Part shown: positions 14,614 to 28,476 of the stretch, piece by piece | Position numbering within the stretch: the first letter of the stretch is position 1 | Layout of the letters: each line of letters starts with the position of its first letter | NCBI GenBank assembly: GCA_030651305.1 | Contig: JAUSCI010000002.1 | Location: 1 to 38,747 of the forward strand | Direction: 5' to 3' | Origin: Sulfuritalea sp. | GTDB taxonomy: Bacteria > Pseudomonadota > Gammaproteobacteria > Burkholderiales > Rhodocyclaceae | DNA length: 38,747 nucleotides | Notes under the pieces: model-generated | Told to the model about the DNA's origin: nothing | Database searches by the model: none | The model's input: the letters and a program-made list of their open reading frames with translations, nothing else | Position numbers and translations under genes: made by a program

Positions 14614-14901
14614 TCACTTGAACCGGGCGCTGGCATCAGCCATGCCGGTCCTCAGGTCTTCCCAGATTTTGTCGGCAGTTTCCTTGATCTGCTCCCATGC
14701 TTCACCGCTGGCCGTTTCCAGATCCTGCAATTTCTCATGTGCCGTACGTTGTTTGGCACGCAGCGTATCCAGTTCCTCGGCGCGCCTGACCTTCATGTCA
14801 GCCCCGGCGTTCTCCGCCTTGGCTTCGAACAAATCAACCTGCGCGCCCCATTCCTTGAGTTGCGCCGCCATCTTCTGCTTGTATGCTTCCTGCAATTCCA
14901 T
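14614..14901 (-). CDS. Coiled-coil stress protein, sll1863-like
   Basis: A 95-residue, highly charged, almost wholly helical protein with no membrane segment or signal peptide. It resembles the sll1863-type coiled-coil family in length and in the pattern MAAQLKEWGAQVDLFEAKAE and ASGEAWEQIKETADKIWEDL. The family is linked to stress responses in cyanobacteria, and its molecular function is unknown. Its neighbours (BON lipoprotein 35 bp upstream, LapA protein downstream) support a stress or envelope role. Confidence 0.75.
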   Translation of the reverse strand: MELQEAYKQKMAAQLKEWGAQVDLFEAKAENAGADMKVRRAEELDTLRAKQRTAHEKLQDLETASGEAWEQIKETADKIWEDLRTGMADASARFK

Positions 14902-14936: not shown

Positions 14937-15425
14937 CTATTTGAACGTCTTCTGCACCAGCCTGTTTTCAACCCTGGTCACGCCGGCCACAGCGCTGGCC
15001 AGTACTTTGACCCGGTCGCTGCTCGGCTCCGAATCAACCGATCCGCTCAATGTCACGACGCCTTTTACGGTATCGACACTGATTTGCAGGGTCTTCAAAC
15101 CGGGCTCGGCAAAGATGGCGGCCTTGACCTTGGCTGTAATTTCGGTGTCGTCAATGGCGACGCCGGTTTTCACGCCTTGCTCGCCCAGCTTCTCACCGAC
15201 CTTCTCGGTTGCTGCATTGATCTTCCTGCCGGCGGCCTCCGCGGTCTTTTCTATCTCTTTCCCGGCGGCCTCAGCTGTCTGTTCTATCTTCTTCCCGGCG
15301 GCCTCCGCTGTCTGGTCTATCTTCTTGCCGGCAGTCTCTGCGGGCCCGGGTTTATCGCAAGCGGCAAGTCCTGCAACCAGCAACATCGAAATGCCGATCA
15401 ATTTGAGGCTTCCTGAGGCTTTCAT
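14937..15425 (-). CDS. BON-domain lipoprotein with 11-residue repeats
   Basis: A 162-residue lipoprotein: the signal ends in a lipobox (VAGLAAC, Cys23). Residues about 29-72 are four to five copies of an 11-residue unit of the form TAEAAGKKIEQ, an amphipathic helix like those of LEA-type proteins. Residues about 90-160 form one BON domain, the OsmY-type module thought to bind phospholipid or envelope surfaces. Recognisable parts are DDTEITAKVKAAIFAEPG and VKGVVTLSGSVDSE. The BON domain closely resembles that of the lipoprotein at 16904-17218. It is the first gene of the leftward stress operon and has an AAGGAACC Shine-Dalgarno. Confidence 0.88.
   Translation of the reverse strand: MKASGSLKLIGISMLLVAGLAACDKPGPAETAGKKIDQTAEAAGKKIEQTAEAAGKEIEKTAEAAGRKINAATEKVGEKLGEQGVKTGVAIDDTEITAKVKAAIFAEPGLKTLQISVDTVKGVVTLSGSVDSEPSSDRVKVLASAVAGVTRVENRLVQKTFK
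15210..15341 (-). repeat. 33-bp tandem repeats coding an 11-residue helix unit
   Basis: Within the BON lipoprotein, near-identical 33-bp units encode successive AETAGKKIDQT, AEAAGKKIEQT, AEAAGKEIEKT and AEAAGRKINAA segments. The DNA copies are similar enough to suggest fairly recent expansion, and copy number could vary between strains. The hendecad pattern suggests a long amphipathic helix linking the lipid anchor to the BON domain. Confidence 0.85.
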
Positions 15426-15782
15426 TTTGGTTCCTTTTAAAACGTGTTCGCATTGGCGAGAATTTGTTCCGTAACTGGCTGGCAGACCAATTCGCAGACA
15501 CCATTTGATCCTTTACGCATAAATGCTTTATCCGCTTTGCGGCTGCGGAACTCTGTGCGCTGGAACACATTGAGATGTCTTTCCGCAGACGCAAACCATT
15601 TCGGCGAAGCGGCGGCCAATGAGTACGGCAGCGCACAGAGAGCATGTCGGCCGAGGAACACGATGCGGGACAGGGGATGCCAGGAGTCGGGAATGTCCCG
15701 TCCAGCTACCCGCAGCAGGAGGCATTGTGAATATCGCACGTACCGCAAGCATTGAAACCATTTCAGACAAGAAGGAAACGTC
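15426..15782. promoter_or_regulatory. Divergent intergenic region of the stress island with a 12-bp inverted repeat
   Basis: These 357 bp separate the leftward BON-lipoprotein operon from the rightward DUF883 operon and must hold both promoters. Frames crossing it on either strand lack family resemblance and cross the start of DUF883. CTCTGTGCGCTG at 15551-15562 is matched exactly by its reverse complement at 15629-15640, with a 66-bp spacer. A smaller palindrome CGGGA-atg-TCCCG lies near 15692. GAAGGAAACGTC just before 15783 supplies the DUF883 Shine-Dalgarno. I cannot name the regulator. Confidence 0.5.
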
Positions 15783-16058
15783 ATGACAGATCTCAAAAGC
15801 CTGGTCGCCGATGGCGACGACCTGTTGCAGCAATTGGTCAAGTGCAGCAACGAAGAATTTTCCGCGGCGCGTGCCGGGATCGAAAGAAGGCTGCGCGAAA
15901 CAAGCTCCAGGCTTCATCACGCACGAATCGCGATCGCCAGGAAGGCCGGCAGGACTGCGGACTCGACATTCGAGTACGTTCAGGAGAACCCGTGGAAGGT
16001 CTTCGGGGTTGCGGCGATGGCCGGACTCATCACCGCATTTGTCCTTAGTCGCCGCTGA
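15783..16058 (+). CDS. DUF883 (ElaB/YqjD-like) C-tail membrane protein
   Basis: A 91-residue protein with a long amphipathic, charged N-terminal helix and one C-terminal membrane helix (about 70-88), ending in the family hallmark VLSRR. The YVQENPWKVFGVAAMAGL segment is typical of DUF883/YqjD/ElaB. E. coli relatives are tail-anchored inner-membrane proteins that bind ribosomes in stationary phase; whether this one does is unknown. It opens the rightward stress operon, followed 91 bp later by the CsbD gene. Confidence 0.88.
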   Translation: MTDLKSLVADGDDLLQQLVKCSNEEFSAARAGIERRLRETSSRLHHARIAIARKAGRTADSTFEYVQENPWKVFGVAAMAGLITAFVLSRR

Positions 16059-16149
16059 TGCATGTTTCCATTCAGGCGAACGGGATGAGTAGCGAATCGG
16101 CAATTGCGGCCGGCATGACCGACACCGAAGAGACTCGACGGAGTCCGCC

Positions 16150-16377
16150 ATGAACTGGCATATCGTCGAAGGCAGCTGGAAGCAGTTCAAGGGCAAGGCG
16201 AGAAAGCATTGGGGCAGGCTTACCGGCAATCGACTCGACGTGATAGCCGGCAAGCGGACCGAGCTGGCGGGAAAGGCACAGCGTGCCTACGGCGAAACAA
16301 AAGACAAGGCCGAGCATCAGCTCACGCGCTTCCTGCGGCAGCACCACAAGGACTATCGTCCGAAGCGGTCCACTTGA
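16150..16377 (+). CDS. CsbD family stress protein
   Basis: A 75-residue basic, hydrophilic protein matching CsbD (MNWHIVEGSWKQFKGKARKHWGRLT, with later KAQRAYGETKDKAEHQL). Family members are general-stress or sigma-B-type proteins of unknown biochemical role, often induced by osmotic stress. The extra C-terminal segment (about 56-75, RFLRQHHKDYRPKRST) is basic. The EncFtn-like gene follows 13 bp after its stop, so the two are very probably co-transcribed. Confidence 0.9.
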   Translation: MNWHIVEGSWKQFKGKARKHWGRLTGNRLDVIAGKRTELAGKAQRAYGETKDKAEHQLTRFLRQHHKDYRPKRST

Positions 16378-16390
16378 TCAGGTGAATGAA

Positions 16391-16678
16391 ATGTCCAGCG
16401 TCGGTTATCACGAGCCCGTTGAAGAACTGTCCACTGCAACACGCGATATGCACAGAGCAATTGTTTCCCTGATGGAAGAGCTGGAAGCGGTTGACTGGTA
16501 CAACCAGCGCGCCGAGACTTGCCATGACAAGGAACTCAAGGCGATTCTCGAACACAACCGGGACGAGGAAAAGGAACACGCAGCCATGCTGATGGAGTGG
16601 ATTCGGCGAACCGATCCGCGCTTTTCCACGGAACTGAAGAATTGCCTGTTCAGCAAAGGACCGGTGGCGAGGAAGTAG
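16391..16678 (+). CDS. Encapsulated-ferritin-like (EncFtn) protein, no targeting tail
   Basis: A 95-residue two-helix ferritin-like protein. The segments HRAIVSLMEELEAVDWYNQR and LEHNRDEEKEHAAMLMEWIRR match EncFtn, the iron oxidase that fills encapsulin nanocompartments. By recalled alignment with Rhodospirillum rubrum EncFtn, ferroxidase-centre residues correspond to E30, E60 and H63, with entry-site residues E29/E32 and W36. All are present. The protein stops at GPVARK without the C-terminal cargo-loading peptide, and no encapsulin shell gene lies in the window. It may work free in the cytosol as a decameric ferroxidase. The ATG at 16391 is supported by AGGTGA 5 bp upstream; an earlier in-frame start overlaps csbD. 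Confidence 0.87.
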   Translation: MSSVGYHEPVEELSTATRDMHRAIVSLMEELEAVDWYNQRAETCHDKELKAILEHNRDEEKEHAAMLMEWIRRTDPRFSTELKNCLFSKGPVARK

Positions 16679-16903
16679 ACCAGCCGGTCTGTTTGTCGTG
16701 GCGTGGCTCACGGTTTCCCGCTTCGCTATGTGCGCCACCGTACTGTCAGAGCCGACTTTCGTGACTATTCTGAATCAGGGATTCGAGAACATGGGCCGCT
16801 TGAGTGCTGCCAGGCTCGGCTCTCGGTCCACAGAACTGCGCAAATCGCGCAGCTCGAAATCGGATCAGGACGTTCTGTTCAACCTAAATTTGGAGAGCCA
16901 ATC

Positions 16904-17218
16904 ATGAAACAACTCAGAAGCTATCTTTCAGCAGCATTCCTCGCCGTTACACTGATATCCGTTGTGGGTTGTGCGTCCACGTCGACCCAGGAGGGAACCG
17001 GCGAGTACGTCGACGACAGCATCATCACCACCAAGGTGAAGGCGGCTATTTTCAATGAGCCGACCATGAAGTCTGCCGAAATCAATGTCGAGACCTTCAA
17101 GGGCGTAGTTCAATTGAGCGGCTTCGTCAGCGCCCCGGCTTCCGCTGGCAAGGCGGCCGAGCTGGCTCGCGGCGTCCGTGGCGTGAAGTCGATCAAGAAC
17201 GACATCCGCGTCAAGTAA
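16904..17218 (+). CDS. BON-domain lipoprotein
   Basis: A 104-residue lipoprotein with the signal MKQLRSYLSAAFLAVTLISVVGC (Cys23), then one BON domain (about 38-103). The domain has DDSIITTKVKAAIFNEPTMK, the Gly-containing turn GVVQLSGFVS and a final VKSIKNDIRV. Its domain parallels that of the repeat-bearing lipoprotein at 14937-15425, but without the helical repeats. It probably sits at the outer membrane or in the periplasm and helps stabilise the envelope. The ATG at 16904 with TTGGAGAG upstream is preferred; the longer frame from 16703 lacks a signal. A 225-bp gap before it may carry its own promoter. Confidence 0.9.
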   Translation: MKQLRSYLSAAFLAVTLISVVGCASTSTQEGTGEYVDDSIITTKVKAAIFNEPTMKSAEINVETFKGVVQLSGFVSAPASAGKAAELARGVRGVKSIKNDIRVK

Positions 17219-17246
17219 GACAGTCCTCGGGCCACGCCCGCGGGGA

Positions 17247-17274
17247 GTATCCCCGGGGCGGCGTCCGGGGATAC
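17247..17274. terminator. Perfect 10-bp GC-rich hairpin after the BON gene
   Basis: GTATCCCCGG (17247-17256) and CCGGGGATAC (17265-17274) form a perfect 10-bp stem with an 8-base loop, 29 bp after the BON stop codon. The position fits a transcription terminator or a 3-prime stabiliser of the stress mRNA. No run of T follows, so intrinsic termination is uncertain. Confidence 0.5.
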
Positions 17275-17307
17275 CTGTCATGTCACCGTCGATAGAGGTG
17301 CTTCATC

Positions 17308-17517
17308 ATGCAAGGCGACCAGACGCAACATGGAGAAAGATGCGAAACGGTCGGCGAACTGTTTGCGTTGCTCGCCGTAGCTCAAAAAATGGGGCACCGA
17401 CTGGGTTATGAAACGCATGGCGAAGCGTACGACTCCGTTCGGGATCTGAATCAACTGCTGCACCAGGCCTGCGAAAAAGCCGAACTGATCCAGCAAACCC
17501 TGACCAAGTTTCGCTAG
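17308..17517 (+). CDS. Small hypothetical helical protein
   Basis: A 69-residue reading frame predicted to be soluble and helical, with a Cys at position 12 and another at 55. It contains segments such as VGELFALLAVAQKMGHRLG and DLNQLLHQACEKAELIQQTL. I do not recognise a family. It lies in the same direction between the BON lipoprotein and the YihY gene, with a weak GAGGTG upstream, and ends 30 bp before yihY. Longer frames exist on the other strand but are antisense to the YihY gene. Probably real, but unproven. Confidence 0.5.
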   Translation: MQGDQTQHGERCETVGELFALLAVAQKMGHRLGYETHGEAYDSVRDLNQLLHQACEKAELIQQTLTKFR

Positions 17518-19656: not shown

Positions 19657-22600
19657 TTGTTGAAAGGGTTTACCGAATTGAACGCCGGCACCAAGCTCAC
19701 CGCCTATTGGCAGCAATCAAAAGCACTGCTTTCCCGAGGCGGATGGACACATCCTTCACTTGAGGAAGAGCTTCCGCTTCGCTCGGAATTGTTCAGCGCT
19801 GAACAGATGGAGCAGCACGGCAAGATTCTCGCGCGCTCGCACAAGCTCGCTGCAGGCCGCGCGCCCGACCAGCTGCTGGCAAGGCTGGCAGCCAACGAAG
19901 TCATTCTTGCCGGTGTCTGCAAGGGGCTGACGACGGCTGTCACGAAAAGACGCCGGGTCTCGCCGGCAGGCGAATGGCTGCTCGACAATTTCTATCTGAT
20001 CGAAGAACAGATTCGCACCGCCAAAAGGCACTTGCCGAAAGGTTACAGCCGGGAACTGCCGCGCCTGGCGAGCGGATCGTCGACCGGACAGCCGCGAGTT
20101 TATGACGTGGCGCTGGAAATCATCGCCCATGGCGACGGCCGTATCGATACCGAAAGTCTCGGCCGCTTCGTGGCTGCCTACCAGACCGTCACGGCCCTCA
20201 AGCTTGGCGAGTTATGGGCAATCCCGATCATGTTGCGGCTGGCGCTCATCGAAAACCTGCGTCGCGTCGGGGCCGGCATTGCCGCCCGGCTGGTCGAGCG
20301 AAACCTGGCCCGCTACTGGGCCGACCAGATGGTGGAGACTGCCGAGCAGGATCCAAAGGGCTTGATTCTGGTGATTTCGGACATGGCACGCTCGAGTCCG
20401 CCGATGGTCAGTGCGTTCGTCGCCGAGTTGGCGCGCCGGCTGCAGGGCCGGGGCGTCGCCCTGGCCTTGCCCCTGACCTGGATCGAGCAGCGTCTCGCCG
20501 AGTCGGGCCTGACCATCGAGCAGCTGGTGCAGGCGGAAAACCAGCGTCAGGCGGCCTATCAAGTGTCTATCAGCAACAGCATCGGCAGCCTGCGGGTACT
20601 CGGCGCCATGGACTGGCGAGAATTCGTCGAGACCATGAGCGTTGTCGAGCAAACCCTGCTCGGGGATCCGGCAGGCGTCTATGGTGCAATGGATTTCGCA
20701 ACCCGCGATCGCTACCGTCACGCGACGGAGAGGATTGCGAAAAGGGGCCGTCTGTCCGAGTTCGAGGTGGCCCGCAAGGCGGTCGAACTGGCGCGCAGCG
20801 GCGCGGCGATCACTGCCGACGCTGGTGCCAGCGATCGCGCGGGACACGTCGGTTTCTACCTGATCGACAAAGGCCTGCCAGACCTGGAGCGGGCCGCAGA
20901 AGTGCGTCTGCTGCGCGCCGAAGCTCTGGCGAGAAGGGCGGGCCGGTCGCCGCTGTTGCTGTATCTGGGCGCCATGGCGCTGATCACGGCGATCGTCAGC
21001 GGCGGCCTGGTGGCGCAGGTGCCTCCCATTGCGCTGCCTGCGGGCATTTTTGCAGGTTGGTCCGGCTGGGCGTTGTGGCCCATCGGGATTCTCTCGCTGC
21101 TGGCGGCCAGTCAGTTGGCGATAGCGCTGGTAAACCGGCTGGCGACATTGCTGGTGATCCCGCGACCGCTGCCGAGGATGGACTTCGGTGCGGGAATTCC
21201 ATCGACCGCGCGCAGCCTGGTGGTGATTCCGACCATGCTGACGAGCGCCTCGGGCATCGAAGATCTGGTCGAGGCGCTGGAAGTCAGATTCCTGGCGAAC
21301 CGTGATGAGCGGCTGCACTTTGGCCTGTTGACCGACTTCCGCGACGCGGACCAGGAATCGCTGGCCGAGGATGCCGCACTGGTGCAACTGGCCCGGACGC
21401 GGATAGACGAGCTGAACGAGAGATACGGCAGCACGGGGGGGCAGACTGGAAGCGACATATTCTTTCTCTTTCATCGCGCGCGGCAATGGAACCCGCAGGA
21501 ACGCATCTGGATGGGCTACGAGCGCAAGCGAGGCAAGCTGGCGGATTTGAACGCACTGTTGCGAGGCAGGGCGCACGTGAGTGCCGATGACGGCGTTAAC
21601 AGCGGTTTTGCGCTCGTCGTCGGCGACACTGCGGTTCTGCTGGAAGTGAAGTACGTCATCACCCTGGATACGGATACGCGACTGCCGCGCGACGCGGCCC
21701 GGCAGTTTGTCGGCGCCATGGCGCATCCGCTCAATCGTCCACATTATGACGAGGGCAAGCAACGCGTCAGCGCCGGCTATGGCATCCTGCAGCCGCGCGT
21801 GGCGATCAGCCTGCCGGGAACCAACCGCTCGCACTATGCCCGCCTGTACGGCGGCGAGCCGGGCATCGACCCGTACACGCGAGCCGTTTCGGACGTCTAC
21901 CAGGACGTGTTCCGGGAAGGGTCGTTCATCGGCAAGGGCATTTACGACGTCGATGCCTTCGAGCAGGCGCTGGGCGGGCGCTTTCCGGAGAATTGCATCC
22001 TCAGCCACGATCTGATCGAGGGATGTTTTGCCCGTGCCGGGCTGCTGAGCGACGTCGAATTGTACGAGGACACTCCAGCGCGCTACAGCGCCGACGTGAA
22101 TCGCCGCTACCGCTGGATTCGCGGCGACTGGCAGTTGGCCGGCTGGCTGCGGAGGCGCATCCCGGGCGAGTGCGTCGGAACGGACAAGACGCGGCAGAAG
22201 AATCCGCTGTCGATGCTGTCGCAGTGGAAACTGTTCGACAATCTGCGGCGCAGTCTTGTTCCCGCGGCGCTGCTGCTGCTCTTGCTGCTGGGATGGACGC
22301 TATTGCCCTTGCCCGGAAGGTGGACCTTGTCAGTGGTCGCCATCCTGCTGCTTCCCTCCTTGTCGGCCGCTATCATCGACTTGTTCGGCAAGTCGAAGGA
22401 GGCGCTGCTGCGACAGCATCTTGCCGACGTGGCACGTTCGGCATCGCGTTGCCTCATGCAGGTCGCCTTTGAGCTGGCCTGCCTTCCCTATGAGGCGTAC
22501 TTCAGTCTCGGCGCCATCGTTCGCACCACCTGGCGGATGAAGGTCGCGCACAGCCGACTGCTGGAGTGGAATCCGTCGGGCGAGATCGATTGCAACCCGC

Positions 22601-25600
22601 CCCTGCCTGGGCGCAGCGACCTGGCCACCTCTTTCCGGGTGATGTGGGTCGGCCCCGCCATCGCCACGGCGGTCGCGACTTACCTCGCGCTATCGACGCC
22701 GGCGATGCTGCTTGTGGCAGCGCCGATTCTGCTGCTCTGGTTCGCTTCGCCCGCCATCGCGTGGTGGATCAGCTGCCCGCTGGCGGAGCGCAAGGCCCCC
22801 CTGTCCGCCGACCAGACATTCTTTCTGCGCACGCTTTCGCGCCGGACCTGGGCCTTCTTTGACAACTTCGTCGGCGCCGAAGATCACTGGTTGCCGCCGG
22901 ATAACTATCAGGACTATCGAATTGCCGCCATCGCGCATCGCACATCGCCGACCAACATCGGCATGGCGTTGCTGGCGAATCTTGCCGCTTACGACTTCGG
23001 CTACATCCCGTCAGGACAACTCGTCCTGCGCACCGCCAACACCTTCAGCACGATGGCAGGAATGGAGCGGCACCGGGGACATTTCTACAACTGGTACGAC
23101 ACACTGACACTGCAACCGCTGCCGCCGCGGTACATCTCGACAGTAGACAGCGGCAACCTCGCCGGCCATTTGCTGACCTTGCGTGCCGGCCTGCTCGCGC
23201 TGGCCGATGACCCGATCCTTCCGGCGCGACTGTTCGACGGTTTGAGCGATACCCTGGGAATCCTCGCCGAGGCGTCGGACGGAGCCGGCGCGGTTCCGGT
23301 GGCGGCGTTCCGCAAGAATCTCGAGTCGGCGTCCGCTGCTGCGCCGCGACCACTCGCAGCGGCGAGACTGATCCTTTTCGGACTGGCGACCGGCGCCGAG
23401 GATCTCATCGTCCAGATCGCGCGCGGCCTGAAGGGCAGCGATGACCCTGCGCTCGAGAGCGAAGCCAACGCCTGGGCAGAGGCACTTGCCCGGCAATGCC
23501 GCGAGGCCCTGGACGACCTGAACTTCCTCGCCCCGTGGCTGTCGCTGGCCACGGCACCGAACGGGTTCAGGAAGTTCGACGGCAGCGACGGAATCCCGAC
23601 CCTGCGCCAACTGGCCGCGGCAGGCAGCACCCAGGCTCGCCACCGTCTGGCTGCGATCGAAGATCTGGCGCTGCAAGCCTTTGGGCTGGCAAGCATGGAG
23701 TTCGATTTTCTGTTCGACGCGCAGCGACACCTGCTGACTATCGGCTACAACGTGGATGAACGTCGTGCGGATACCAGTTACTACGACCTGCTGGCTTCGG
23801 AAGCACGACTGTGTTGCTTCGTCGCCATTGCGCAGGGGCAACTGCCGCAGGAGAGCTGGTTTTCGCTGGGGCGCCTGCTCACCGGCAGCGGCGGCGAGCC
23901 GGTGCTCCTGTCGTGGAGCGGCTCCATGTTCGAGTACCTGATGCCGCTTCTGGTGATGCCGACCTACGACAACACGCTGCTCGACCAGACCTGCAAGGCG
24001 GCAGTGGCCCGGCAGATCGAGTACGGGAAGCAGCGCGGCGTTCCCTGGGGCATTTCGGAGTGCGGCTACAACACGGTCGATGTGCATCTCAATTATCAGT
24101 ACCGGGCATTCGGCGTGCCGGGCCTGGGGCTCAAGCGCGGCCTGGCCGATGACCTGGTCATCGCGCCCTACGCCTCGGCGCTGGCGCTGATGGTAGCGCC
24201 CGAGGCGGCGTGCCTGAATCTGCAGCGACTCGCGGCCGAGGGCTTCATGGGCAAGTTCGGCTTCTTCGAAGCAATCGACTACACGCCGGCACGGCAGCGA
24301 CGCCGGCAATCGAGCGCAGTGGTGCGGTCCTTCATGGCCCATCACCAGGGCATGAGCCTGCTGGCTTTGGCCTACCTGCTGCTGGATCGTCCGATGCAGC
24401 GCCGGTTCGAATCGGACCGGCTGTTCCAGGCCGTCATGCCACTGCTTCAGGAAAGGGTTCCCAAGGCCACCGCCCTGTTCTCGCATACCGATCAGCTTTC
24501 CAGCCAGCGTGCAGCGGGAACCGTTGCGGAGATGCCGATACGGGTATTCAACACGCCCGATACCCCGAACCCCGAGGTGCAGTTGCTGTCGAACGGGCAC
24601 TATCACGTCATGGTGACCAACGCCGGCGGCGGCTACAGCCGCTGGAAGGATCTTGCCGTCACCCGCTGGCACGAAGATGGCACCAGGGACCATTGGGGTT
24701 CCTTCTGTTACCTCCGTGACGTGGCGAGCGGGGCTTACTGGTCGACCGCCCATCAGCCGACGCAGAAGCGACCAGAAAGTTATGAGGCGATTTTCTCCGA
24801 GGGACGCGCCGAGTTTCGCCGCCGCGATTCGGTTGCCGCCAAAGACGGCACCGATGCCGGACAATTCGAAACCCATACCGATATCGTCGTCTCGCCTGAG
24901 GACGATATCGAGCTGCGCCGGGTCCGCATCACCAATCGATCACGCCAGCGCAGGGAGATAGACGTCACCAGCTATGCCGAGGTGGTAATTGCACCGGCGG
25001 CTGCGGACGTGCTGCATCCGGCCTTCAGCAATCTTTTCGTGCAGACCGAAGTCATGCGCGAGCGGCGTGCGATCCTGTGTACGCGTCGACCCCGTTCGAC
25101 TGGCGAGCAGCCGCCGTGGATGTTTCACCTGATGATCGCGCACGGAGCCGACATCAGCGAGGTGTCTTACGAAACGGACCGGTTGCGCTTCATCGGCCGC
25201 GGCAGAAACGTCGCCGCTCCGCTGGCGATGGGCGTCGCCGGAGCAGGTCCCGCCACCCTCTCGGGAAGCGACGGCTCGGTGCTCGATCCGATCGTCGCCA
25301 TACGCTATTCACTGATGCTCGATCCGGAGCAGTCGGCCACCATCGACATCGTGTCGGGTGTCGCCGACAGCCGCGAGCTAGCCGTGTGCCTGATCGAAAA
25401 ATACCAGGACCGGCATCTCGCCGACCGTGTCTTCGAACTGGCGTGGACTCACAGCCAGGTGGTACTGCGGCAGCTCAATGCCACCGAGGCCGATGCCCAG
25501 CTTTTTGCGCGTCTGGCCAGTTCGGTCATCTATGCCAACGATTCGCTGCGCGCCGCCGCCGCCATCCTGATCAGGAATCGACGCGGGCAGTCCGGGCTGT

Positions 25601-28476
25601 GGGGATACTCCATTTCCGGCGACCTGCCCATCGTGCTGCTGCAGATCGGGGACGCCGCCAATATCGGGCTCGTGCGCCAGCTGGTGCAGGCCCATGCTTA
25701 CTGGCGCCTGAAGGGACTGGCAGTGGACCTGGTGATCTGGAACGAAGATCAAGCCGGCTACCGGCAGCAATTGCAGTCGCAAATCCTCGGACTGATCACT
25801 TCGGGCATAGAGGCCAGCGTGATCGACCGACCGGGCGGCATTTTCGTGCGGCCGGCCGAGCAGATCTCCGGTGAGGACCGGATCCTGTTCCAGTCGGTCG
25901 CGCGCGCCGTCATTACGGATGGCCGGGGAACACTGGAGGAACAGATCAACCGTGGCGGTCCTGTCGAACCGCGCGTGCCGCAACTGGTGCCGACACGCCG
26001 CTACCGACCCGACACCTCGCATGACAATGCTGCCGCCGAGGCTTTGGCGCGCCGCGATCTGATCCTGTTCAACGGTCTGGGCGGCTTCACGCCCGACGGG
26101 CGCGAATACGTCATTACGCTTGGGCCGGGGCAAACGACACCGGCGCCGTGGGCGAACGTCCTGGCCAATCCGTGGTTCGGCACGGTCATTTCGGAGAACG
26201 GCGTCGGTTACACCTGGAGCGAGAACGCGCACGAGTTCCGCCTCACGCCCTGGCACAACGATCCGGTTAGCGACGGGAGCGGCGAAGCGCTGTACTTGCG
26301 CGACGAAGAGACCGGCCATGTCTGGTGCCCGACGCCGTTGCCGATCCGCGCGGCAACGCCTTACGTCATCCGGCATGGCTTCGGCTACAGCGTCTTCGAG
26401 ACCCGGTCGGGCGGCATCTGCTCGGAACTCTGGATCTATGTGGCCATCGACGCGCCCGTCAAGTTTTCGGTGTTGAAGGTGCGCAACGAGTCCGGTCGCG
26501 CGCGGAAACTCTCCGCGACCGGTTACGTCGAATGGGTGCTGGGCGATATCCGCGCGAAATCCGCCATGCACGTGACCACGGAAGTCGCTGTGCACAGTGG
26601 CGCGCTCCTGGCGCGGAATCCGCACAACCCGGAGTTCTCAGACCGGGTCGCCTTCTTCGACGTGGATGATCCGAAGCGCGCCGTGAGCGGCGACCGCAGG
26701 GAATTTCTCGGGCGCAACGGCTCGCCGGGAAATCCGGCCGCCATGAAGCGGGCGCGTCTTTCCGGCAAGACCGGAGCCGGTCTCGATCCCTGCGCTGCGA
26801 TCCAGGTGAGTATTGATCTGGCTGCCGGACAGGAGCGCGAGATCGTCTTTCGCCTTGGTGTCGGGCGCAATGCCAGTGACGCCGGCAAACTTGTGCAGCG
26901 CTGCCGTGGCGCACAGGCAGCGCGCGGCGCGCTGGAAGCCGTTTGGCAGCACTGGAACCACACGCTGGGCGCGGTACAGGTGGAAACCCCCGATCCCTCG
27001 GTCAATGTGCTGGCCAACGGCTGGCTGGTTTACCAAACTCTGGCCTGTCGTGTCTGGGCCCGTAGCGGCTACTACCAATCAGGCGGCGCCTTCGGTTTTC
27101 GCGATCAGTTGCAGGACATGATGGCGCTGATCCATAACCGCCCGGGTCTGGTGCGCGAACACCTGCTGCTGTGCGCCAGCCGCCAGTTCCATGAAGGCGA
27201 TGTCCAGCACTGGTGGCATCCGCCATCTGGCCGGGGCGTGCGCACGCATTGTTCGGACGATTACCTCTGGCTGCCGCTGGCGGTTTGCCGCTATGTCACA
27301 AGCACCGGCGATACCGGGGTACTGGATGAACCCGTGCCTTTTCTGGAAGGCCGTCCGGTCGGCGCCGAGGACGATTCCTACTTCGACCTGCCCGGCCGCT
27401 CGTCCGACACGGCAAGCCTTTACGACCACTGCGTGCGGGCCATCCGGCACGGCCAGCAATTCGGCGAGCACGGCCTGCCGCTGATCGGTTCCGGTGACTG
27501 GAACGACGGCATGAACCTGGTGGGCATGGATGGCCGGGGAGAGAGCGTCTGGCTCGGCTTCTTTCAGTGCGAAGTCCTCAGGCAGTTCACCGCGGTGGCG
27601 ACTGCGCATGACGATCCATCCTTCGCCGAACTTTGCCGGGAGGAGGGAGGGCGCTTGCGTCAGAATATCGAGCAGCATGGCTGGGATGGCGAGTGGTACC
27701 GCCGCGCCTACTTCGACGACGGCACGCCGCTGGGGTCGGCCGGCAACGTCGAATGCCGGATCGATTCAATCTCGCAAAGCTGGGCTGTGCTGTCGGGGGC
27801 GGGGGAAGAACATCGTTCGCGCATAGCCATGAAATCGGTCGTCGCCAAGTTGGTGCACCGGGACTCAGGGCTCATCCAGCTTCTCGATCCGCCCTTCGAC
27901 AACAAATCGGACATGGATCCGGGTTACATCCGAGGCTATGTGCCGGGTGTCAGGGAGAACGGCGGGCAATATACCCATGCGGCAATCTGGGCAGCGATGG
28001 CTTTTGCACAGTTGGGTGATCGCGAGCATGCCTGGGACTTGCTGACCATGATCAATCCGGTCAACCATTCACTCTCGGCAGAGGACATTGCGGTCTACAA
28101 AGCGGAACCCTATGTCGTCGCGGCAGACGTCTATGCGGTCGAGCCGCATGTCGGCCGTGGTGGCTGGAGCTGGTACACCGGCTCGGCCGGCTGGATGTAC
28201 CGTCTTGTCCTTGAATCGCTTCTCGGCCTGAGGCTTGAGGGAGAGCGCTTGTTGCTTGATCCCTGCCTGCCTGCCGACTGGCAGGCGTTCAAGATTCACT
28301 ATCGCTATCGCGAGACCGTATATCACATTGCCGTTTCACAAACGCGCACCGGCGATGACGGCAAGGACGGCGTGACGAGCGTAGTGGTTGACGGCGCCGA
28401 ACGTGCTGACATGACGATTCTTCTGGTTGATGACCGCCGCGATCACGCGGTTCGGGTTATCGTCCACGTCAAATAA
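19657..28476 (+). CDS. ndvB: Cyclic beta-1,2-glucan synthase (NdvB/Cgs type)
   Basis: A 2939-residue inner-membrane enzyme that starts, extends, cyclises and trims cyclic beta-1,2-glucan, an osmoregulated periplasmic glucan. The length matches rhizobial NdvB and Brucella Cgs. Membrane clusters lie near 429-500, 864-910 and 989-1040. The GT84 domain holds D671-T-D673 (TLDTDTRLP), LSHDLIEG (782-789) and the [10 protein letters not shown] segment (816-825), equivalent to QxxRW. The C-terminal half carries GH94-type phosphorylase modules that set chain length, with G2611-SGDWNDGMN including D2614 and D2617. The start is uncertain: no ATG or GTG fits, and TTG at 19657 (or 19660) is the best choice, 23 bp after the permease stop. 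No glucan exporter (NdvA) lies nearby. Confidence 0.95.

Follow-up and report, generated by a model that had tools for sequence, protein, structure and literature searches.

The window, by which we mean the whole analysed stretch of 38,747 nucleotides from Sulfuritalea sp., carries a short EncFtn-like gene that is preceded on the same strand by genes for DUF883 and CsbD family proteins and followed by one for a BON-domain protein (Table 1). Divergent genes upstream encode a LapA-domain protein and a second BON-domain protein, and an sll1863-family stress protein is encoded on the same minus strand as the latter. A sequence-only reading of this DNA had named CsbD, DUF883 and BON genes as the neighbours, and the Pfam matches bear out all three. 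The DUF883 and CsbD genes are separated by 91 nt, the CsbD and EncFtn genes by 13 nt and the EncFtn and BON genes by 225 nt, and this shared strand and spacing suggest a probable operon. A promoter and terminator scan of positions 15300-17400 returned 0 promoter-like and 3 terminator-like sites, which is within the level of shuffled sequence. We found no paper joining DUF883, CsbD and the BON domain, and a search of the phage record collection gave no match. Farther downstream, at 19657-28476, lies an ORF of 2939 aa, which we take to be cyclic-glucan-synthase-like; an ORF with a similar start is found downstream of the EncFtn gene in another locus, L216.

Table 1. Features at the short EncFtn locus of the window
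Feature	Position	Strand	Basis
sll1863-family stress protein	14614..14901	-	NF052504, 102.1 bits (cut-off 35)
BON-domain protein, divergent upstream	14937..15425	-	PF04972, E 6e-16
LapA-domain gene, divergent upstream of EncFtn			
DUF883 protein, 91 aa	15783..16058	+	PF19029 and PF05957 over cut-off
CsbD family protein, 75 aa	16150..16377	+	PF05532, E 2.1e-18
AGGTGA, ribosome-binding-site-like, 5 nt ahead of ATG	16380..16385	+	read directly
Short (tailless) EncFtn-like ferroxidase gene, 95 aa, from ATG at 16391 to the end of the stop codon at 16678	16391..16678, stop included	+	PF22277, TIGR04535, identity to NE0167/3K6C
Codon E30 (R. rubrum E32), ferroxidase centre	16478..16480	+	82/82 short, 20/20 tailed homologues
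Codon Y37 (R. rubrum Y39), ferroxidase centre	16499..16501	+	82/82 short, 20/20 tailed
Codon C44, cysteine kept in short class	16520..16522	+	79/82 short, 7/20 tailed
Codon E60 (R. rubrum E62), ferroxidase centre	16568..16570	+	82/82 short, 20/20 tailed
Codon H63 (R. rubrum H65), ferroxidase centre	16577..16579	+	82/82 short, 20/20 tailed
BON-domain protein, 104 aa, downstream	16904..17218	+	PF04972, E 1.9e-18

The encoded protein matches the Pfam EncFtn-like profile PF22277 with 142.6 bits (cut-off 27, E 3.2e-42) and the NCBIfam profile TIGR04535 with 132.4 bits (cut-off 125); the name of the latter, "encapsulin-associated ferritin-like protein," is misleading for the window protein. The ferroxidase-centre residues that the sequence-only reading had recognized are complete, with the ligands E30, Y37, E60 and H63 all in place, the roles of their counterparts in the R. 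rubrum EncFtn being described in PMC5012862. The entry residues E29 and E32 and the exit residues H55, E59 and E62 are likewise there, and this whole set of ligand, entry and exit positions is kept in 82/82 short homologues, except for H55 (81/82), and in all 20 tailed or fused ones. That a cargo-loading tail is missing also proved correct: 8 residues follow F87, whereas tailed or fused relatives (n = 20) have 27 to 159 there, the upper value coming from a fusion, and the loading motif, in the pattern used, is absent from this C terminus and from those of all 82 short proteins.

The nearest solved structure is that of NE0167 from Nitrosomonas europaea (PDB 3K6C), which is identical to the window protein at 66 of 94 residues, is likewise tailless and 95 aa long, and has the ferroxidase ligands in common with it in the alignment. 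The window protein differs from it in its divergent C terminus (...NCLFSKGPVARK), which lacks the common ...KPIAH ending and the histidine that 72 of the 82 short proteins have within their last four residues. A review (PMC11202242) reports decamers in the 3K6C crystal structure and describes s-FLPs as having an EncFtn domain without a long disordered C terminus or an apparent targeting peptide. The window protein fits this definition, and NE0167 would, we infer, be a member of the group called "s-FLP" or "Non-EncFtn" in the literature. The tailed FLP-TP of R. rubrum, Rru_A0973 (5DA5), is identical to the window protein at 54 of 92 residues and has like ligands; it is described as 140 aa long, with a localization sequence and a C-terminal region that is disordered, and as being sequestered in an encapsulin. 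In contrast, the window protein has neither a tail nor a shell gene found in its genome, and so lacks both the loading peptide and the shell gene that mark an FLP-TP (encapsulated ferritin cargo). Hence, a tailless EncFtn is not something new: the window protein belongs, as an unremarkable example, to a short class that is already known, that has a name and a crystal structure and that is commoner than the tailed or fused form (83 versus 19 genomes) in a sample of 369 genomes of the class.

Forty-nine of the 82 short homologues are exactly 95 aa long, with the starts as chosen in our analysis. In a sibling MAG (L157) the protein is 96% identical and has the identical length and stop codon (dN 0.018, dS 0.069), and the comparison with the more distant L158 gives a dN of 0.123 and a dS of 1.44. 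The shared length and stop, together with the low dN/dS, indicate a maintained gene under purifying selection, and we accordingly rejected the idea of a truncated cargo protein. In a tree of 194 rows, which is unrooted and has many unresolved forks and unsettled bootstrap values, the window protein and that of L157 share a long branch, surrounded by short proteins of betaproteobacteria. That the tailless state defines a single clade is not supported: the short/tailed label requires 5 changes on this tree, at least 3 of them on well-supported branches, and the short proteins of L097, L102, L119 and L246-L249 cluster with tailed ones.

An encapsulin elsewhere in the genome was named in the sequence-only reading as a finding that would, if it loads this protein, tell against a free-standing one. 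No family-1 encapsulin (PF04454) was detected in the genome of origin (G000; 3.9 Mb in 82 contigs, 97.59% complete), and the same search was positive in 3 of 14 genomes as a control. The corresponding search for family 2 (PF19307) returned nothing in this genome, but its control was positive nowhere, so only the family-1 negative is informative. With no tail and no family-1 shell gene found, the description of the protein as a free-standing EncFtn stands.

A survey of tailless homologues and their neighbours, which had also been proposed at the outset, places this result in a wider setting. In the class sample, EncFtn-like matches over the cut-off occur in 101 of 369 genomes and an encapsulin in 19. 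The loci analysed were 102 from 97 of these genomes (82 short, 20 tailed or fused), plus the window; left out of the counts were G002, G027 and G087, whose matches pass the cut-off and are partial or weak, G093, G211, G265 and G283, which fall below it, and additional matches below the cut-off. Encapsulin and a tailed or fused EncFtn occur in exactly the same set of 19 genomes. Encapsulin is absent from 79 of the 83 short-form genomes, the window's included, part of the class genomes being incomplete, so that single absences are not proof; the remaining four (G014, G196, G236 and G247) also carry a tailed or fused EncFtn. Overall, no shell gene accompanies the EncFtn in 79 of the 98 class genomes with a full EncFtn-like gene.

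A second sample comprised 80 named genomes with short relatives close to the window protein (the best 80 of 582 matches) and overlaps the class sample in at least 3 genomes (L203, L204 and L219). An encapsulin was found in only 1 of these 80, a Thiohalocapsa MAG whose encapsulin locus carries its own tailed EncFtn (L237). For locus counts in this sample (n = 78), L203 and L219 were dropped as class-sample copies and L204 (= L126, identical protein) was retained. In a draw of 299 genomes from the phylum, 19 of which were over the EncFtn cut-off, 15 of 17 short-form genomes are without encapsulin (G000 and G013 having already been counted in the class sample). The other two, G458 and G478, pair a divergent short form with an unlinked encapsulin, so that shell loading is possible in them; G686 carries an encapsulin and no EncFtn. 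The exact correspondence of tail and shell is thus true of the class sample but not of the phylum.

These counts bear on the explanation that the window protein is loaded, via an undefined short C-terminal signal, into an encapsulin that our search missed, either in an assembly gap or because it belongs to another shell family. This is extremely improbable: it draws on the fragmentation of the genome into 82 contigs at less than full completeness, on the family-2 search with its control positive nowhere, on G458 and G478, and on the 2024 review (PMC11202242), in which it is left open whether s-FLPs become encapsulated, but it is opposed by the lack of a family-1 encapsulin in 79/83 class and 79/80 second-sample short-form genomes (the latter among the best 80 of 582 matches), by the tailed or fused EncFtn that all encapsulin genomes of both samples hold as well, and by the 82 short tails devoid of the loading motif. 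We conclude that the encapsulation question for s-FLPs is largely answered by the genomes.

The proposal that the gene sits in a stress setting held for the window itself, where the DUF883, BON and sll1863 genes are present, but only a handful of betaproteobacterial loci repeat this arrangement. Near class short EncFtn genes, DUF883, BON and CsbD genes were each found in 0/82 loci and sll1863 in 1/82. Among the 78 second-sample loci (from the best 80 of 582 matches), the corresponding counts are 6 for DUF883, 6 for BON, 4 for sll1863 and 1 for CsbD, the last being the sibling L157. Genomes with such neighbours include those of Sulfuriferula, Thiobacillus, Accumulibacter and Azonexaceae; L216 mirrors the window, with DUF883 directly upstream of EncFtn and with divergent BON and sll1863 genes. 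The stress island therefore recurs, but in some betaproteobacteria only, whereas the wider link of the short form is to the three-gene cluster of rubrerythrin (RBR), RFO and DUF3501, known as the aerobic-type rubrerythrin system (PMC5114695).

In 22 of the 82 class short loci, representing 18 families, a DUF3501 gene lies within about 5.6 kb on the same strand, and in 17 of these 22 the EncFtn gene is placed between RFO, an Fe-S oxidoreductase, and DUF3501. Rubrerythrin is upstream of RFO in 16 of the 17, and the remaining one (L103) is interrupted by a contig end. If the two genes were placed at random, about 0.2 linked loci would be expected by a rough estimate (an 11.2-kb span in 3.1 Mb, over the 58 genomes that have both), and the linkage is seen in 0/20 tailed loci. 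It is seen in only 3 of the 78 loci of the second sample (L182, from Sedimenticola selenatireducens, L232 and L236; best 80 of 582 matches) and 1 of 16 in the phylum draw (L243), and a nearby DUF3501 gene was not found in 60/82 class short loci, some of which are cut by contig ends. At the level of whole genomes, DUF3501 is present in 59 of 83 short-form genomes versus 101 of 286 others, a comparison uncorrected for kinship. A peroxiredoxin gene adjoins the short EncFtn on the same strand in 4/82 loci (L058, L131, L133 and L144), three of them from one family. The window gene differs from the 22 linked genes in being neither in nor beside such a cluster: it lies on contig C28, and the RBR, RFO and DUF3501 genes of the same genome stand in a row without EncFtn on contig C47 (L254:3952-7576), next to a gene for a LysR-type regulator. 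We presume that this regulator resembles OxyR.

This linkage is open to the interpretation that the short EncFtn mainly assists the rubrerythrin system or another redox chain, delivering electrons or metal, rather than acting as a free ferroxidase, and that the window copy has been relocated. The 17 genes between RFO and DUF3501, the selective retention of Cys44 in the short class (Table 1) and the persistence of the RBR-RFO-DUF3501 cluster by its LysR regulator on another contig of the same genome are in keeping with such a role. It is nevertheless unlikely, since no placement in the cluster was found for 60/82 class and 75/78 second-sample short genes (best 80 of 582 matches), and since the ferroxidase ligands match those of ferroxidases with proven activity. 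A bolder version of the link, which we put forward tentatively and consider on balance doubtful, is that aerobic-type rubrerythrin peroxide defence has the short EncFtn as an overlooked fourth component: a shell-independent ferroxidase, perhaps H2O2-using, would remove Fe(II) while rubrerythrin removes peroxide, with the shell-free form being the usual one in the class and the encapsulin-bound form a special case. Neither "encapsul" nor "ferritin-like protein" is found in the main text of PMC5114695, and a figure legend there mentions an unspecified hypothetical protein in rubrerythrin neighbourhoods; rubrerythrins near Flp-fusion encapsulins appear in PMC8346489. In the titles and abstracts searched, we did not find a link between short EncFtn and rubrerythrin or DUF3501 in print. 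This link and the genome-wide answer on encapsulation are what the analysis mainly adds.

Several other EncFtn-like genes were encountered. One, at L001:4932-5276 (+) on the large, phage-like contig IMGVR_UViG_3300021514_000002 (363,531 bp), encodes a tailless protein of 114 aa that is 43% identical to that of the window, and genes close to it match PHROGs for a DNA polymerase, an HNH endonuclease and an exonuclease; a second match on a viral contig is L257. A homologue with 61% identity was recovered from a distant phylum, in Acetoanaerobium noterae (Bacillota; L258), on a 2.6-Mb record labelled a plasmid. Divergent genes (about 40-44% identical) are found on Bradyrhizobium/Rhodopseudomonas plasmids typed as conjugative (L259, L260 and L261): the first is divergent from mbfA, the second is downstream of cadA and an MgtC-family gene, and the third begins 38 nt after a heavy-metal P-type ATPase gene, with genes for CzcA and CDF proteins close by. 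Within about 6 kb of the chromosomal relatives L250-L253 there is no MbfA gene. In L128, a short EncFtn gene and a znuA-like gene for zinc uptake stand back to back, near a gene for a Fur-family regulator.

The company of MbfA, P-type ATPases, CzcA and CDF on the three Nitrobacteraceae plasmids, along with the one short gene back to back with a znuA-like gene, could be taken to mean that the window protein, rather than oxidizing iron, acts on a different metal or buffers metals in general under envelope or heavy-metal stress. We regard this as very unlikely: the plasmid proteins are only about 40-44% identical to the window protein, the one of the three that was inspected, from B. betae, no longer has H55 and E62 of the exit site, and the di-iron ligands of the window protein are complete.

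We also considered whether the short form replaces classical ferritin, and rejected this idea. A PF00210 match below 1e-10 occurs in 54 of 80 short-form genomes versus 53 of 80 EncFtn-free genomes, so there is no class-wide pattern of ferritin replacement; that classical ferritins are no rarer in short-form genomes also speaks against the reading favored below. The EncFtn-free set was chosen by hand from 150 randomly listed genomes, ahead of all ferritin searches on them, and 2 of the 82 other short-form genomes were omitted (G005, 62% complete; G178, 72%). No Ftn, Bfr (bacterioferritin) or Dps was found in the window's own genome, both of its PF00210 matches being rubrerythrin-family proteins.

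Taken together, we favor the reading, with a probability of about 0.72, that the window gene encodes a stand-alone short (s-FLP) EncFtn acting as a shell-free, Fe(II)-oxidizing ring that would serve peroxide or stress defence and store no mineral. By analogy with its relatives, its monomers would pair to form a four-helix bundle with a di-iron site, and the pairs would build up an open ring like the one reported for 3K6C. This ring, in the cytosol, would oxidize Fe(II), holding tens of iron ions at most per decamer and buffering or passing on Fe(III) with no mineral core. Oxidation of this kind without mineral storage fits the behaviour published in PMC5012862 for isolated R. rubrum EncFtn, which oxidizes Fe(II) faster than background, takes up at most about 48 Fe per decamer with precipitation above that, and for which a shell is described as needed for iron storage. 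Against the favored reading stand the lack of peroxidase activity of R. rubrum EncFtn in one assay, the many short loci with no DUF3501 gene found nearby, the place of the window gene outside the rubrerythrin cluster of its own genome, its missing C-terminal histidine and the unlinked encapsulins of G458 and G478. According to a 2020 review (PMC7762939), it is not known whether EncFtn prefers O2 or H2O2 as oxidant; the gene neighbourhoods favor H2O2 as the probable one.

During oxidative and related stress, such a protein would leave less Fe(II) to feed Fenton chemistry, much as the sequence-only reading had plausibly proposed. In some relatives the gene would be tied to peroxide removal by rubrerythrin, and in this lineage it is found among DUF883, CsbD and BON stress genes. 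For the family as a whole, the shell-free status seen in 79 of the 98 class genomes makes a testable statement of a point left open by the 2024 review, and the operon link with rubrerythrin hints at a function for part of the shell-free proteins, in which iron oxidation may be tied to peroxide defence and not to storage.
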